In this document: one piece after another, positions 22,399-29,412 of the stretch
How the letters are laid out: every line of letters starts with the position of its first letter
How positions within the stretch are numbered: position 1 is the first letter of the stretch
IMG/VR virus record: IMGVR_UViG_3300024346_000341
Coordinates: 1-30,754 of that record
Direction: 5' to 3' (one strand)
Origin: a virus
Length of the DNA stretch: 30,754 nucleotides
The notes under the pieces: model-generated
Database searches by the model: none
The model's input: the letters and a program-made list of their open reading frames with translations, nothing else
What the model was told of the DNA's origin: nothing
Position numbers and translations under genes: made by a program

Positions 22399-23019
22399 AT
22401 GGCATTACCACCACCACCAAGTCCTTTTAGCATATCAGACTTTAAGACTGCTATTGGTAAACCAGTTCGTCCCAACTTATTTAAAGCAGTATTGCGTGGA
22501 TGGGATAAAGCATCTACTGACGAAAACGATCAGCTTGCCGCTTATTTAGCCAGAAACGATGTAACAGACATTGATGAATTTTCATTTCGATGCGAAAAAG
22601 CTGAATTTCCTGGTCGCACAATTGCAACATCAGAAGACACTGGAGGTGGTGGGCCCTCATTGAAACTTCCGTACGATGTTACTTACAATGACATTCAACT
22701 TTCTATTATATGTTCAGCAGACATGAAAGAGCGTTTGTTTTTTGAATCTTGGATGGATTCAATTATAGGTCCAGCGGGCGAGAAAGTTGGTTTTAGCACT
22801 GGAGGATTAGTTTCATATTTTGAACACTATGCTAGAGGAATTTCATTGGAAGTTCAACAACTGGATGAATCTGGCGAAATTATTATTGCGTATACAATGA
22901 ATGACATTTATCCGACTGCATTATCAGCGATGAATGCAACATGGGAAGAAGTAAATTCATATCAGCGTTTTGGAGTCACTTTGTTTTATCGTCATTACAC
23001 CTATGCAAAACCCGTTTAA
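22399..23019 (+). CDS. Tail-tube-fold protein (gp19/gp54-like)
   Basis: 206 residues. After a Pro-rich start, PNLFKAVLRG and FSFRCEKAEFPGRTIATSED are followed by YDVTYNDIQLSIICSADMKE, FFESWMDSII, IAYTMNDIYPTALSAM and the closing FGVTLFYRHYTY: the order of elements of the T4 gp19 tail tube family (T4 gp19 has 163 residues). In T4-like genomes gp19 lies next to gp18 and gp20, which are not here, whereas gp48, gp26 and the tape-measure-like gene are near. I therefore favour a second tube-like protein acting as tube initiator (gp54 role), but the major tube protein is possible. AGGAAG lies about 9 bases before the ATG. Confidence 0.8.
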   Translation: MALPPPPSPFSISDFKTAIGKPVRPNLFKAVLRGWDKASTDENDQLAAYLARNDVTDIDEFSFRCEKAEFPGRTIATSEDTGGGGPSLKLPYDVTYNDIQLSIICSADMKERLFFESWMDSIIGPAGEKVGFSTGGLVSYFEHYARGISLEVQQLDESGEIIIAYTMNDIYPTALSAMNATWEEVNSYQRFGVTLFYRHYTYAKPV

Positions 23020-23062: not shown

Positions 23063-23803
23063 ATGGCATTGCCAAAAATTAACACACCTATCTTTGAATT
23101 GACTTTATCATCATCTGGTCAGCCGGTTCAATATCGCCCATTCTTAGTGAAAGAACAAAAAATTCTTTTACTTGCATTAGAGAGTGGAGAACCAAAATCA
23201 ATTATGACAGCAGTAAAACAAATTATCAGAAACTGCGTTGTCGGTGACAATGTTGACGTTGATAAGTTGCCGACATTTGATTTAGAATATTTCTTTATGA
23301 GATTGAGAGGCAAATCAATCGGTGAAGTAGTAGATTTACAATTACGTCATCCTACTGGATTTAATTCAAAAGATGAAGAGTGCGACAACGCAACTCAATT
23401 CAAATTTAACATTATGCAAGTTGAAGTTCAAAAGACAATTGAACACAGCGATAAAATCATCATTGATGAAAATACTGGATTAGGGATTAAGCTAAAATAT
23501 CCAACAGCAGATTTTGCTGAAATGGATTTAGAAAATCTGAGTCAACTAGATATTGCATCTAAAATGTTGGTTGCAAGCATTGACTATATTTACGACAAAG
23601 AAGAAGTCTATAAAAAAGAAGATTCTTCAGAAAAAGAATTGTCAGAATTTATCGACAATCTTTCTCAAGAACAATTCACTAGTGTAATGAAGTTCTTTGA
23701 AACAATGCCTAAACTTAAACATACCATCAATTGGAAATGTTCAAAGTGCGGTTGCGATGATGAAGTTACTTTGGAGGGAATGTCCAATTTTTTCGCATTG
23801 TGA
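23063..23803 (+). CDS. gp26: Baseplate hub/tail assembly protein, gp26-like (T4_baseplate family)
   Basis: 246 residues in frame zero (T4 gp26 has 208). LPKINTPIFELTLSSSG, YRPFLVKEQKILLLALESGE and FDLEYFFMRLRGKSIGEVVD follow the family pattern (T4 base plate protein, PF12322 as I know it). The C-terminus has a CxxCxC knuckle, KCSKCGCDDEVTLEGMSNFF; with only three clustered Cys metal binding is uncertain. Strong SD (TTGGAGG, 7-8 bases before the ATG). Near the end, an SD-like GGAGGG and a T_TTT_TTC slippery site would shift ribosomes into the overlapping -1 frame, giving a product of 310 residues. Placed two genes before the tape-measure-like gene, this mirrors the G/GT tail assembly chaperones of other phages. 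Confidence 0.88.
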   Translation: MALPKINTPIFELTLSSSGQPVQYRPFLVKEQKILLLALESGEPKSIMTAVKQIIRNCVVGDNVDVDKLPTFDLEYFFMRLRGKSIGEVVDLQLRHPTGFNSKDEECDNATQFKFNIMQVEVQKTIEHSDKIIIDENTGLGIKLKYPTADFAEMDLENLSQLDIASKMLVASIDYIYDKEEVYKKEDSSEKELSEFIDNLSQEQFTSVMKFFETMPKLKHTINWKCSKCGCDDEVTLEGMSNFFAL

Positions 23804-23831
23804 TGGGGCATGATAGTCTACTAAACTATTA
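23773..23831 (+). other. Candidate programmed -1 ribosomal frameshift site
   Basis: Three elements: SD-like GGAGGG at 23773-23778; heptamer T_TTT_TTC at 23788-23794 in the correct frame (codons AAT TTT TTC); and a weak 7-base stem at 23811-23817/23825-23831. The SD-like element is 9 bases before the heptamer, like the stimulator in E. coli dnaX. After slippage the frame reads CGC ATT GTG ATG GGG and continues to the stop at 23992. The zero-frame stop is 7 bases beyond the heptamer. The stem starts 16 bases after the heptamer, farther than usual, so the upstream element is the better argument. Confidence 0.6.
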
Positions 23832-23994
23832 CAAGACCAATTTCGCCTTGATGCAACATCATAAATACAATTTAGGTGATTTAGAAGATATGATCCCTTT
23901 TGAGCGTGATATTTACATAATGTTATTAAGTCAGCATATAGAAGAAGAAAATGACAGAACACAACAGCAAAATCAAATGCACAGAAGAGGTTAA
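23803..23994 (+). CDS. Second-frame tail assembly chaperone segment (T-like), probably frameshift product
   Basis: 63 residues from ATG at 23803, whose A is the last base of the gp26-like stop; a GTG at 23800 also exists. MGHDSLLNYYKTNFALMQHH, then LGDLEDMIPFERDIYIMLLS and QHIEEENDR: helical, acidic, with the FERDIY stretch I associate with small proteins that follow gp26 in cyanophage-like genomes. There is no SD within 15 bases of either start; the nearest is 25 bases up, at the frameshift site. It is therefore better explained as a C-terminal extension of the gp26-like protein (66 added residues after Phe244) or by re-initiation. It stops 5 bases before the holin-like gene. Confidence 0.72.
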   Translation: MGHDSLLNYYKTNFALMQHHKYNLGDLEDMIPFERDIYIMLLSQHIEEENDRTQQQNQMHRRG

Positions 23995-23999
23995 AATCG

Positions 24000-24518
24000 A
24001 TGGCTACGCAAAAAGAATACGAAAAGCTGAGTGACAGCGACAAGAAAAAAGAAGATTGGATGAACAATAAGTGGCGTCCAATGATGGGTTGGATTTACAT
24101 GGTAACGTGTGTGACAGACTTCATTCTCTTTCCTATTCTTTGGGCTATGTTACAAGCGGCACTGAAACAACCAGTGACTGCTTGGCAGCCAATCACACTA
24201 CAAGGTGCAGGATTATTTCATTTGTCTATGGGTGCTATTATTGGTATTGCCGCATTTGGTCGTACACAAGAAAAACTAGCAGGAGCAAACAATGGAGGTA
24301 TGCAACCCATGGGACAAAGCGTCACAACAACATATGGCTCTCCGTCATCAGGAGGATTCGGTCCATCCAGTAATTTTGGTGCATCAACAACACCATCGAC
24401 ATTCAATAGCAGTTCATCAAGTATGGGAAGCAACTCAATGGGGATGTCAAAACCAATGGGTGGCAAATCAGCAAGATTTGCTGAAGCCGATCCAGACTCT
24501 GTATTTGACAGAGGGTAA
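24000..24518 (+). CDS. Holin-like small membrane protein
   Basis: 172 residues. A charged N-terminus is followed by NKWRPMMGWIYMVTCVTDFI and LFPILWAMLQ (membrane helix about 28-54), WQPITLQGAG and LFHLSMGAIIGIAAFGRTQE (helix about 68-88). The WRP start, the second-helix ending and spacing resemble the GTA-type 3TM holin family (PF11351). The last 80 residues are a Ser/Gly/Met-rich tail (for example SSSSSMGSNSMGMSKPMGG), likely disordered. SD AGAGG 8-9 bases before the ATG. It lies between the chaperone and the tape-measure-like gene, where a lysis protein is not expected in T4; a role in tail membrane insertion or channel formation is an alternative. No endolysin gene is adjacent, though the next gene has a lytic domain. 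Confidence 0.7.
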   Translation: MATQKEYEKLSDSDKKKEDWMNNKWRPMMGWIYMVTCVTDFILFPILWAMLQAALKQPVTAWQPITLQGAGLFHLSMGAIIGIAAFGRTQEKLAGANNGGMQPMGQSVTTTYGSPSSGGFGPSSNFGASTTPSTFNSSSSSMGSNSMGMSKPMGGKSARFAEADPDSVFDRG

Positions 24519-24525
24519 CTAATAT

Positions 24526-27500
24526 ATGGCAACAATAGGTAATTACAGCGCCGCACTAGGAGGCGCACTCAAGCAAACTGCTGGAGGTATTGTCAAAGGT
24601 TTTGGATACGGTCTCAAAGGCGCAATGCTTTCTGAGATGCCAGGCCTTGTTGCCGGCTATGGTGCATTCTCTAGTCTAAGAAAAGACGCAAATAGCATGA
24701 GTCAGGCAAAACAAGCGCCGGCTCAAACACCAACACGCTCTCAAACAAAACCTTCAGCTACTGGAAATCCATTTGCACAAATGGTTCAGCAGTTAGCACA
24801 AATTAATTCTAATACTGCAATGGCGGCAAGTGTCGCTAAAGCATCTGCACAAGCCGAACAGTATAAGATGATGTTTGAAGAAGAAAAGGCTAGAGAACAG
24901 GCACAACAAAATCAAGCACTCATTGATGCAATTAAGAATTCAGGATTTGGTGGCGGAGGAAATAAAAGTGGCGGCTCGGGCGGTGGTGGAAATGGAAATG
25001 ATAAAAATGGTATTTTTGATTTTTTAAAAAACAACGCTAAAGAGTTGGGGGGAGGTGCGCTTGCTTTTCTATTAAGAAGACAAATAGCTGGTATGGTGAG
25101 TAGTGTCATGCTAAGAGCATTAGCATCACCACTTACAGGTGCAATTGTTGGCGGTGGTATAGCGGCTGCATCGATGGGCGCAACTATTGTTACTATGCTT
25201 AGAGGATTGATGTTTACTGCATTGCGTGGTTTGCTATTCACTCCAGCTGGATTAGTTGCCGCTGGCATTGGTGGCTTAATGTATTACAGCAGAAAGACTG
25301 AAAACAAACAAACAAAAGATGCTGTAAAAAATAATCTTCCTGTTGCGCCTATGCCAAATAAAACTTTTGAGCAAGAAGCAAAAGAATTGAGAGAGCAAGC
25401 TAAGAATGAAAAAGATCCACTTAAAAGAACAGAACTTGAAACTAAAGCTAAAGCCGCACAAAACAATGTAGCGCAAGAAAAAATTAAAAATTCTCCTTTG
25501 ACTTTAGAAAATAGACAGAAAGCGTGGAAAGAAAAGTACGACAAATCTCATAATGCAACCGGTGCGCCGAAAGTAGTTACTACTGGAAACTATCTTGATA
25601 ATTTAGCTAGAGCCGAATCGGCAGGTGATCCTAATGCTAAAAATCCAATGCCAGGTCAGAGTGCATCTGGATTATTCCAATTCACACAAGCGACTTGGAC
25701 AGGAACAGTTGAAAAGATGGCTAGCAAAGGCTTAATAAAAAAAGAAGATTATGCGGACTTAAAATACAGATTTGATCCAGCCAAATCAAGAAAAGTTGCA
25801 GAATTTTTTACAGAAGAAAATCGCCTTGGTTTAGAAAAAGCATTAAATCGTCCTATCACTCAAACAGACCTCTATATGGCTCACTTTTTGGGTCTTGGTG
25901 GAAATGAGAATGGCGCAATTAGATTTTTAAAAGCATATGCAAAAGACCCAGATGGGTTAGCAATTAATTATGCTGGTGCGGATCAAGTGGCCGCCAATCC
26001 AAGTATTTTTTATACAAAAGACGCACCTCCTAGACCACGCACATTAAAAGAAGTGTATGCGTTGATGAGTAAAAAAATTGGTGGTGGAAATAAACCAAGT
26101 GTTGGTCCACAAACAAGTGAGAATGACAAGAAACCATCAACTGGTGATGTTCCTGTAGTAGGCAATCGTTCATCAAGAAAAAATTCTAAATTTAATGTTC
26201 CTGGATATGCCGCACAAGTAAATAAAAAATTAACAGACAATGCAGTTACAAAATATTATAAAGCAATGTCTGAGGGAAAAACAGAAGCAGAAGCAAAAAA
26301 ACTTGCACTTGAAATAGCATCAACTAATACTGTTGCAAAACAAGCAGTAGAAGTAGCATCAGAAAAATTCAAAGCTGAAGTTGCTGGTGGAGGAGGCGAT
26401 TCTGAGAATGGGGTTAATGGTGATGGATATGATTTTAGAAAACTTTTTGGTTCAAGTAAATTTGGTGATAATCCAAATGCTATAAAACTAGCCGCTGGTT
26501 CTGGATTCAATCTTGGTGCACCATTGATTGAAATGGGTGATGGTGCCGTAGCTGAAGCCGCGGCTGCAAGCCCAACTTCAAATGCGGTTGTAAACGCAAG
26601 AAATAAAGCTATAGCAGACAAGTTTTTGGCTGAGCGTAAAGCAGAAGAAAGTAAAAAAGAAGTTGTTAAATATTTACGTCAAACATCCGAAAATACTTTT
26701 AATACTGCTAAAGAAGTTAAGAGTAATCGAATTACAATGTCTAAGGGTAAATTTACTAGTCCCGAAGATATATTATCTAAAGCAAATAAACAATTCACAG
26801 ATAGTCTACAGAAACAGTTAACTAAAACTATTTCTGGCACTTTGATGAGTGCATTGTATCCAGGTGGATATAAAAATGTAAGCCAGAAAACTGCATCAGG
26901 ACAATTGTATAGAGGTGAACAACTCAACAAGATGTTGGGTGTTACGCCAGCACTTGTCAAACTTGGAACATCTGTATTTGGTAAGCAATACGGTCCTGCA
27001 TTCGGACAAATCTTTGGAAAAGCCGCAACATCTTATATGGAAGTTGGTGCTAGGTCTGTAGCACAAGGTATCTTTGGTTCAATGGGTATGAATTCTGACC
27101 AAGCAAATATTCTTGGTGGACAGATTTTAGGTAATCTTGCTAAAGGAACACAACAAGGTAAGTTAACTGCGCTTGAACAGATTATTTTTGGTGTGAGTGG
27201 AGGACAAGTTGCACTTGGTCCAGAAACCATATTTGCAAAATATGGTTTTGCATCACCACAAGAAGGCATTAGCTACATGGCTAATGTATTGGGTGCGGCC
27301 GCCATGGGACCAATTGATAGTGCGTTAGGAACTACACCACTCAATATGCGTAACATGGATCCAAGAATGAGACAGATGGGTGCATTTGGTGGCTATGGTG
27401 GTGAGTATGGTGGTATGCCTGGAGGAATGCCTTCAATAGGAACACAAAATGCAACGCTTAGAAATGATCCTATTTTACAATTAAACAAAGACGGCATGGT

Positions 27501-29412
27501 TACTATTACAGATAATATGCCTGCTCAAACAAAAACTCTAGCAGAGCAACTCAATGTTTCAAAGCAAGCAGAAAAAGATGCACAACTGATGTTTGATGTT
27601 TCAGAAAAAAATAGTCAAGAACAACATGTTGCTATGACAATGTTAAATGAGGCGCAGTTACAATCGGCACTATTATCTAATCAACTTCTTGCATCAATGG
27701 CGTCTAGAGGAACTGGCGGTGGTGGTGGAACATCAATCAACATAGGTGGTAGCAAAGGTGGTGGATTCTTTAGCGGAGGTGGTCCTCTTGCTGAAGTTGG
27801 CAACATGGCTCTTGACTTGGGTAAGTCTGTTATCACACAAAAAGTGGTTCAATCTCTGGGCATTAAAAATCCATACATGGGTTTGCTTGCATCTTTTGCA
27901 GTCAATAAGGGTGTAAGTTATCTTGGCGGTAAAGCACTTGATTTATTTAAAGGTACAGAATTTGGCCAAAGTGTTACTGGCGCATTCTCTAATATATCAA
28001 ACAGTTATCAAATGGCCGCACCGTCATGGGCGGGTGGATATAGTGATGCACAAAAAGCATTTTTTAATGCCGCTGATGCGGCTGATGCTGCCGAAGGCGC
28101 TGCCATGGCAGCCAATGCGGGCACTGAGGTAGCCACATCAACTACGTCATTTCTTCAAGGATTTGACTTTATGGATGCATTGCCGTATGCAGGTGCTATA
28201 ATAAAATTATTTCAAGGCGACATTAAAGGTGCGGCATTGTCGGCTGCAGGAGTATTCATCGGAAACTTAATTCTTCCTGGTATTGGTGGTTTCATTGGTG
28301 GTTTCTTGGGTGGTTTATTAGGTGGTGGTGGAGGTGGTGGAAGACAACCTAATCCAACCATTTGGCGTATTATTCGTGTCAATGGCAATAATAATATTGC
28401 CGCAATTGTAGATTTACAAGCACCAGTAGATAATCCACCTAAAGAATTTTTTGACCTTTGTGATGCTTTACTCAGGGTTGGATTTAATGCAACAAAAGCA
28501 GCCGAAGGTGCAACTAAAAAAGCACCACCTTTTGATTTTCTTATGACTTCAATGAACGCTGTCGATGGTGTATATTTTAGTATGAGAAAGGGTGATCCAG
28601 CATCTGCTGATACCTACGCCATTCACCTGGGCAAAACAGACAAGACGTTTAATGCAGGTAAAGCCTCTTCAGAAATTGTTAAACTTATTACGACTGCATT
28701 TAAAGAAGCATATGCCGCTGATGCAACCGCTCTTGATAACGCATCCAAACTTTTAAATAAAAAAACTTACAAAGAGTTATCTACTGGCTTGACAAAAGAA
28801 TTGAAAAAGGGCACCGACAAACTAGGTACTGGAAAATTAGATACGACAATAGACAGAGGTGTTTTTGGTGGCACAGCCGCAGAAGATGCAATTATTGTAG
28901 CAGGTAGAACAAATACACCACAAGCCGCTGTTAGCGGCTATGACAATGATGGCTATACCGGCAATAGTTCACCGCCTATGGTTTATAGTATGAAAGAAGG
29001 CAAATATATTGAAGCACCATCAGAGATGAAAGAAGTTGATGTTGTTGCCGAAAATGATTATGGTATGCGAACTACTGTAAAAGTAAAACGAAAAGTTTAT
29101 GATACTAGCGTATTGCTGTTTGACAAAGAGGGTAAACCAATATACGACAAAAATAATAGTGGCGGTATTGACTTAGCAGACATTGTTAAACCAACTCTAA
29201 CAACAACTCCAGCTACAATTACATCTGGCACAACAGCGGCAACAACCACATCAGGCGCAACAGGAACAACTACTCCCGTGACTGTTGTTACTAATGCAGA
29301 TAACAGCCAAAGAAACAATCAATCTATTAATACATACTACCAAAACACATTGAGTAAAACTAAGAATCCTATTAGAGATGCTATGTTACAGACTGGTTTA
29401 GCGCCTGCATAA
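24526..29412 (+). CDS. Tape-measure-like tail protein with lytic transglycosylase domain
   Basis: 1628 residues. Residues 80-140 are Ala/Gln-rich helical, then a Gly-rich linker. Residues about 176-255 are strongly hydrophobic and could span membranes. Residues 355-516 form a lysozyme-like SLT domain: catalytic Glu364 in LARAESAGDPNA, GLFQFTQATW at 382-391, MAHFLGLGG near 451. Later parts include a coiled region around 1003-1055, a second Gly-rich hydrophobic block (LILPGIGGFIGGFLGGLLGG, near 1250-1272), and near the end a 12-residue EF-hand-like loop (DKNNSGGIDLAD) followed by a Thr-rich stretch. The position after chaperone-like genes indicates a tape measure (gp29 in T4, 590 residues). The lytic domain would open peptidoglycan during DNA entry. 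The stop codon runs directly into the A-tract and hairpin of the terminator. Confidence 0.75.
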   Translation: MATIGNYSAALGGALKQTAGGIVKGFGYGLKGAMLSEMPGLVAGYGAFSSLRKDANSMSQAKQAPAQTPTRSQTKPSATGNPFAQMVQQLAQINSNTAMAASVAKASAQAEQYKMMFEEEKAREQAQQNQALIDAIKNSGFGGGGNKSGGSGGGGNGNDKNGIFDFLKNNAKELGGGALAFLLRRQIAGMVSSVMLRALASPLTGAIVGGGIAAASMGATIVTMLRGLMFTALRGLLFTPAGLVAAGIGGLMYYSRKTENKQTKDAVKNNLPVAPMPNKTFEQEAKELREQAKNEKDPLKRTELETKAKAAQNNVAQEKIKNSPLTLENRQKAWKEKYDKSHNATGAPKVVTTGNYLDNLARAESAGDPNAKNPMPGQSASGLFQFTQATWTGTVEKMASKGLIKKEDYADLKYRFDPAKSRKVAEFFTEENRLGLEKALNRPITQTDLYMAHFLGLGGNENGAIRFLKAYAKDPDGLAINYAGADQVAANPSIFYTKDAPPRPRTLKEVYALMSKKIGGGNKPSVGPQTSENDKKPSTGDVPVVGNRSSRKNSKFNVPGYAAQVNKKLTDNAVTKYYKAMSEGKTEAEAKKLALEIASTNTVAKQAVEVASEKFKAEVAGGGGDSENGVNGDGYDFRKLFGSSKFGDNPNAIKLAAGSGFNLGAPLIEMGDGAVAEAAAASPTSNAVVNARNKAIADKFLAERKAEESKKEVVKYLRQTSENTFNTAKEVKSNRITMSKGKFTSPEDILSKANKQFTDSLQKQLTKTISGTLMSALYPGGYKNVSQKTASGQLYRGEQLNKMLGVTPALVKLGTSVFGKQYGPAFGQIFGKAATSYMEVGARSVAQGIFGSMGMNSDQANILGGQILGNLAKGTQQGKLTALEQIIFGVSGGQVALGPETIFAKYGFASPQEGISYMANVLGAAAMGPIDSALGTTPLNMRNMDPRMRQMGAFGGYGGEYGGMPGGMPSIGTQNATLRNDPILQLNKDGMVTITDNMPAQTKTLAEQLNVSKQAEKDAQLMFDVSEKNSQEQHVAMTMLNEAQLQSALLSNQLLASMASRGTGGGGGTSINIGGSKGGGFFSGGGPLAEVGNMALDLGKSVITQKVVQSLGIKNPYMGLLASFAVNKGVSYLGGKALDLFKGTEFGQSVTGAFSNISNSYQMAAPSWAGGYSDAQKAFFNAADAADAAEGAAMAANAGTEVATSTTSFLQGFDFMDALPYAGAIIKLFQGDIKGAALSAAGVFIGNLILPGIGGFIGGFLGGLLGGGGGGGRQPNPTIWRIIRVNGNNNIAAIVDLQAPVDNPPKEFFDLCDALLRVGFNATKAAEGATKKAPPFDFLMTSMNAVDGVYFSMRKGDPASADTYAIHLGKTDKTFNAGKASSEIVKLITTAFKEAYAADATALDNASKLLNKKTYKELSTGLTKELKKGTDKLGTGKLDTTIDRGVFGGTAAEDAIIVAGRTNTPQAAVSGYDNDGYTGNSSPPMVYSMKEGKYIEAPSEMKEVDVVAENDYGMRTTVKVKRKVYDTSVLLFDKEGKPIYDKNNSGGIDLADIVKPTLTTTPATITSGTTAATTTSGATGTTTPVTVVTNADNSQRNNQSINTYYQNTLSKTKNPIRDAMLQTGLAPA

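Follow-up and report, generated by a model that had tools for sequence, protein, structure and literature searches.

Very Probable Programmed -1 Ribosomal Frameshift in the gp26-like Tail Assembly Chaperone Gene of a T4-like Phage

Described Frameshift Systems and the Position of T4

A lambda-type chaperone frameshift, with homologues in long-tailed phages, was reportedly described by Xu, Hendrix and Duda in 2004. In this arrangement, a short protein (gpG) is accompanied by a rare -1 fusion (gpGT), the slip site lies near the end of the first ORF, and the gene is located after the tail tube gene and before large tail genes. A related signal is known from E. coli dnaX, in which an SD-like element lies about 10 bases upstream of the slippery heptamer. 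Atkins et al. (2016) describe the G-T frameshift as a broadly conserved feature of long-tailed phages "except T4" (PMC5009743). For T4-like phages, poly-T slippery sites in the chaperone gene are mentioned in a paper from 2025 with reference to Vladimirov et al. (2022) (PMC12846349), and the PRFect paper cites the same work for a short gene accompanied by a longer, fused one in some T4-like phages (PMC10885494). Going by these second-hand citations, poly-T frameshifting in T4-like chaperone genes is already known as a kind, and the T4-like and Vandenendeviridae genes so described share with the locus analyzed here the gene type and a poly-T -1 signal. The motif given for the group of phage Adele is GTTTTT (PMC12846349), whereas the window and most of its relatives carry the full tandem T_TTT_TTN. 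An earlier note on this DNA had suggested that the frameshift might not have been established for T4 gp26. This holds for T4 itself, which does not frameshift here, but not for T4-like phages, which the statement in PMC12846349 credits with such sites. The present analysis adds the breadth of conservation, a selected SD-like element, a start-codon test and T4 as a negative control; part of this may already be published.

The Chaperone Locus and Its Slip Signal

The window is the whole 30,754-base virus record IMGVR_UViG_3300024346_000341 (positions 1 to 30,754), and Pfam and PHROG profile matches reveal T4-type genes in it. Both parts of the gp26-like locus (Table 1) match profiles of the T4 gp26/gp51 family (PF12322, phrog_150 and phrog_634). 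The profile matched by the -1 part, phrog_634, carries the label "baseplate hub assembly catalyst", and elsewhere this domain is either annotated in the same way or given no annotation. The C-terminal end of phrog_150 is matched by the -1 part as well, which suggests that both parts are joined in one protein in some members.

Table 1. Features of the chaperone locus and its neighbors in the window.
Feature	Positions	Strand	Basis
Tail-tube-family protein (gp19/gp48/gp54-like), just upstream	22399..23019	+	phrog_45 E=1.7e-34, PF23849 E=3.7e-9
gp26-like gene, short tail assembly chaperone (TAC-N), 246 aa	23063..23803	+	PF12322 E=9e-62; phrog_150 E=3.5e-68
Internal SD-like GGAGGG, probable stimulator	23773..23778	+	9 bases to slippery heptamer
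Slippery heptamer T_TTT_TTC, in phase of gp26-like frame	23788..23794	+	sequence; T_TTT_TTN in 146/150 clusters
-1 frame C-terminal domain, 66 codons + stop	23794..23994	+	phrog_634 E=4e-29; 585 phage records
GTG and ATG start-like codons overlapping gp26 stop (TGATG)	23800..23805	+	sequence; without SD at proper distance
1,628-aa gene, candidate tape measure or virion lytic protein	24526..29412	+	position; transglycosylase-like segment, about residues 262-575

The gp26-like frame ends in TCC AAT TTT TTC GCA TTG TGA, which places the heptamer in the X_XXY_YYZ phase shortly before the stop codon at 23801-23803. Past the heptamer, the -1 frame stays open for 66 codons until the stop at 23992-23994. 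The phase of the heptamer, the GGAGGG upstream of it and the length of the open -1 frame are thus as the earlier note had described them. The second ORF lies in the -1 frame and overlaps the end of the first, with the slippery heptamer in the overlap, which is the arrangement of the G/GT type.

The locus very probably encodes a programmed -1 ribosomal frameshift. Most ribosomes would terminate at 23801-23803, producing the short chaperone. For a minority, contact with the internal GGAGGG would cause a pause; these ribosomes would slip back one base with Phe-tRNAs on the TTT and TTC of the heptamer and continue in the -1 frame, yielding a 310-aa fusion in which the additional residues correspond to the domain that closes T4 gp51. 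If the lambda gpG and gpGT model applies, the short form would coat the tape-measure protein in many copies, and the long form, present in few copies, would bring in the tail tube subunit. Both the slippage and this role in tail assembly are proposed from the sequence and from the analogy with lambda.

The assignment of the gp26/gp51-type pair to the lambda G/GT type, which the earlier note had suggested, is supported, because it is in line with the conserved slip site, the -1 position of the C-terminal domain, the synonymous selection acting on the SD-like stretch and the gp51 fusion of T-even phages, which is in frame; the predicted chaperone fold agrees as well. The likeness to lambda is drawn from the arrangement and the slip signal, not from sequence similarity. 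As in lambda, the gene follows a tail-tube-family gene and precedes large tail genes. The locus differs from lambda in its T_TTT_TTC heptamer with an upstream SD-like element and in the far greater length of the part before the slip (244 aa). With dnaX, the locus shares a heptamer and an SD-like element about 10 bases upstream, but dnaX has an A_AAA_AAG heptamer, a strong downstream hairpin and an unrelated protein.

Conservation of the Slip Site and Competing Explanations

The open -1 frame by itself is weak evidence, since several neighboring genes in the window overlap -1 ORFs too. Such a frame was consequently dropped as a stand-alone argument, and the strength of the case comes from conservation. 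In the window's genes, T_TTT_TTN occurs in phase 3 times in 9,601 codons. A -1 shift would be productive only in the 13 codons that follow the last -1 stop and precede the gp26 stop, and the expectation of a heptamer there is about 0.4%.

A set of 341 loci was gathered from the window, viral contigs and phage isolates, and the C-domain profile was searched in all forward frames of the 339 loci whose gp26 end is complete. The domain was found in the -1 frame in 332 of them and in any other forward frame in none; the remaining seven, including four T-even records, had no downstream match. After clustering at 80% protein identity and setting aside the four T-even gp51-type records, 150 clusters were left. 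The earlier note had proposed aligning homologues for conservation of the heptamer, and an in-phase T_TTT_TTN is indeed present at the junction in 146 of the 150, starting 7 to 31 bases ahead of the gp26 stop (last base C in 97, T in 39, A in 9 and G in 1). The fair comparison is with other Phe-Phe pairs of the same genes, where the motif occurs at 6 of 165 sites. The codon before the first Phe ends in T in 146/146 clusters, compared with 89 by codon usage, and the first Phe is TTT in 146/146, compared with 97, although these counts presuppose that the site is present and take the clusters to be independent, so that their significance is overstated. The second codon varies (TTC, TTT, TTA or TTG) with the T-run kept, and in ten clusters it encodes Leu instead of Phe, which means that the bases are conserved and not only the protein.

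The four clusters without the canonical heptamer (two of Ackermannviridae, Vibrio phage K448 and a single further locus, L274) keep the C-domain in the -1 frame and have a run of only four Ts. Their junctions read GATTTTC or AATTTTC in Ackermannviridae and close contigs (L175, L261-L273; e.g., Salmonella phage bering), ACTTTTC in K448 (L177) and GGTTTTA in L274. Such a run resembles the T7 gene 10 type of site. It also resembles the GTTTTT motif reported for the group of phage Adele (PMC12846349).

The SD-like stretch shows conservation of its own. In the window, the duplex of GGAGGG with the 16S 3' end has an energy of -9.8 kcal/mol. Across clusters, the strongest predicted pairing with the 16S 3' end belongs to the 7-mer starting 15 bases before the heptamer, with a mean of -6.1 kcal/mol in the 146 clusters versus -4.2 in synonymous shuffles. 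The Glu codon of the Glu-Gly pair encoded there is GAG in 70 of 101 cases, where 25 are expected, and the stretch lies about 10 bases upstream of the heptamer at a roughly fixed spacing in relatives. Selection beyond the amino-acid requirement is thereby indicated, which fits a ribosomal stimulator as in dnaX, and GGAGGG would have this role in the window. On the 3' side, the picture looks lineage-specific. RNAalifold gave no conserved downstream hairpin in the window's own clade, and the 60 bases 3' of the slip in the window contain no strong hairpin (folding z -0.4). Strong hairpins that differ from one another occur about 5-11 bases past the slip in other lineages (L169, L204, L256, L225, L258; L046, L048, L074; L179, L222, L248), and the mean folding z is about -0.9 past the slippery site versus about -0.3 in the gene body. 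Many loci show another minimum of folding z (-0.8) some 220 bases beyond the slip, close to where the -1 ORF ends or the next gene starts.

These data also bear on the possibility that the T-run causes transcriptional rather than ribosomal slippage, with an extra U in some mRNAs. The homopolymer is conserved, as such a mechanism would require, and 39 clusters have seven or more Ts. However, most sites have exactly six, a run shorter than bacterial RNA polymerase usually needs for slippage, and synonymous selection on an SD-like stretch at roughly fixed spacing is explained by a ribosomal and not by a transcriptional mechanism. Slippage of the polymerase is therefore extremely unlikely here.

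The second frame could alternatively be a separate small gene, gp51, translated from its own start or by termination-reinitiation at the TGATG that overlaps the gp26 stop, and most database records do annotate a separate ORF. The earlier note had stated that the second frame lacks an SD of its own. None is indeed found nearby, but GTG 23800 and ATG 23803 do exist at the stop and are the only initiation positions ahead of most of the domain. Comparable starts are absent in most relatives. Ahead of the slip, 139 of 146 clusters lack any ATG, GTG or TTG in the -1 frame, and in 93 of 146 the first such codon comes at least 10 codons past it, yet conservation of the -1 protein begins at the codon directly after the slip (Arg245 at 0.87). 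The earlier note had named homologues whose second frame is well separated and has its own SD as evidence against a frameshift; an SD before the first -1 start is present in just 4 of 145. A separate gene would, moreover, leave the near-invariant heptamer and the in-frame fusion of T4 unexplained, and the records of ACG-2014d and S-CAM1 annotate nothing over the domain. Taken together, independent initiation is a highly improbable account of the second frame, and a programmed ribosomal frameshift is the preferred one. In the cyanophage records KJ019115 (L341) and HQ634177 (L342), the conserved -1 domain stands as an unannotated intergenic gap.

Relation to T4 gp26 and gp51, Fold and Neighboring Genes

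In T4, IME13, Krischvirus PTE-Eco09 and PspYZU05, a single gp51 ORF spans both parts. Their gp26 is encoded separately, has diverged, and stops at the same point as the short product. Residues 12-291 of the predicted fusion align co-linearly with T-even gp51, through the junction (hhalign E 1.9e-21), while T-even gp26 aligns with the fusion only up to the junction. The T-even gp51 C-termini match the C-domain HMM with E 1.5e-13 to 5e-18, the 15 rows of this HMM including the T4 sequence. The T4 hub assembly chaperones gp26 and gp51 are consequently homologous to the short and the long product, respectively, but T4 has two divergent separate genes without a slippery site in place of one gene with a frameshift. 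T4 gp26 ends in GLKEFFELL, and at the junction its gene reads GAG TTC TTT, without a slippery run. Since the shift is not needed there, T4 serves as a negative control. The gp26 of bacteriophage P1 is a different protein, which aligns with T4 gp53.

Frameshift pairs are also found inside Straboviridae (phi-Grn1, AsFcp_2, LPCS28 and EniLVp02), so both designs coexist in one family. Frameshifting is probably ancestral for the tail chaperone of the whole T4 supergroup, its lineages sharing a selected internal SD-like stimulator. The split into T-even gp26 and gp51 would then be a later development: a gene duplication, after which one copy became fused and the other lost its slip site. Straboviridae, where this would have happened, retain both arrangements. 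T4 is listed as the exception to the conserved G-T frameshift (PMC5009743), but its wider relatives, including marine and freshwater cyanophages, carry the standard signal. The proteins termed "baseplate hub" and "gp51" in databases for these phages would be one and the same chaperone, in its short form and as the tail end of its long form. A joined gene could replace the present annotation in hundreds of records, and cyanophage tail assembly becomes testable in lambda terms.

The fold of the short product was assessed with an AlphaFold2 model (pLDDT 89.6), with the window and IMG/VR sequences as alignment rows. For residues 1-95, the best solved match is the Bacillus protein 3FGX (Z 8.4; function unstated), followed by the HK97 tail assembly chaperone 2OB9 (Z 7.1), YqbN 3KLU (Z 7.0) and 5IR0 (Z 4.9); the row after these has Z 2.6. 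The match by Foldseek alone was not significant, and a sequence search of solved structures returned nothing relevant. A Foldseek search against viral models retrieved one gp51 besides gp26 proteins from phages of the T-even type. No conserved stretch emerged from an alignment search started with a Cronobacter phage sequence. Because Z values of 7-8 are middling, the predicted tail assembly chaperone fold is supportive rather than conclusive.

The gene order around the pair consists of the tail-tube-family gene directly upstream and a holin-like ORF followed by a large gene downstream. The earlier note had placed the pair before a tape-measure-like gene. A large gene does follow, but not immediately, and its identity as a tape measure is tentatively suggested by position. 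The intervening ORF (24000-24518, 172 aa) matches GTA_holin_3TM with E 8e-7, which is an odd place for a holin, between a chaperone pair and a large tail gene. The large gene is far longer than T4 gp29, and its lytic-transglycosylase-like segment resembles a segment of one annotated tape measure protein.
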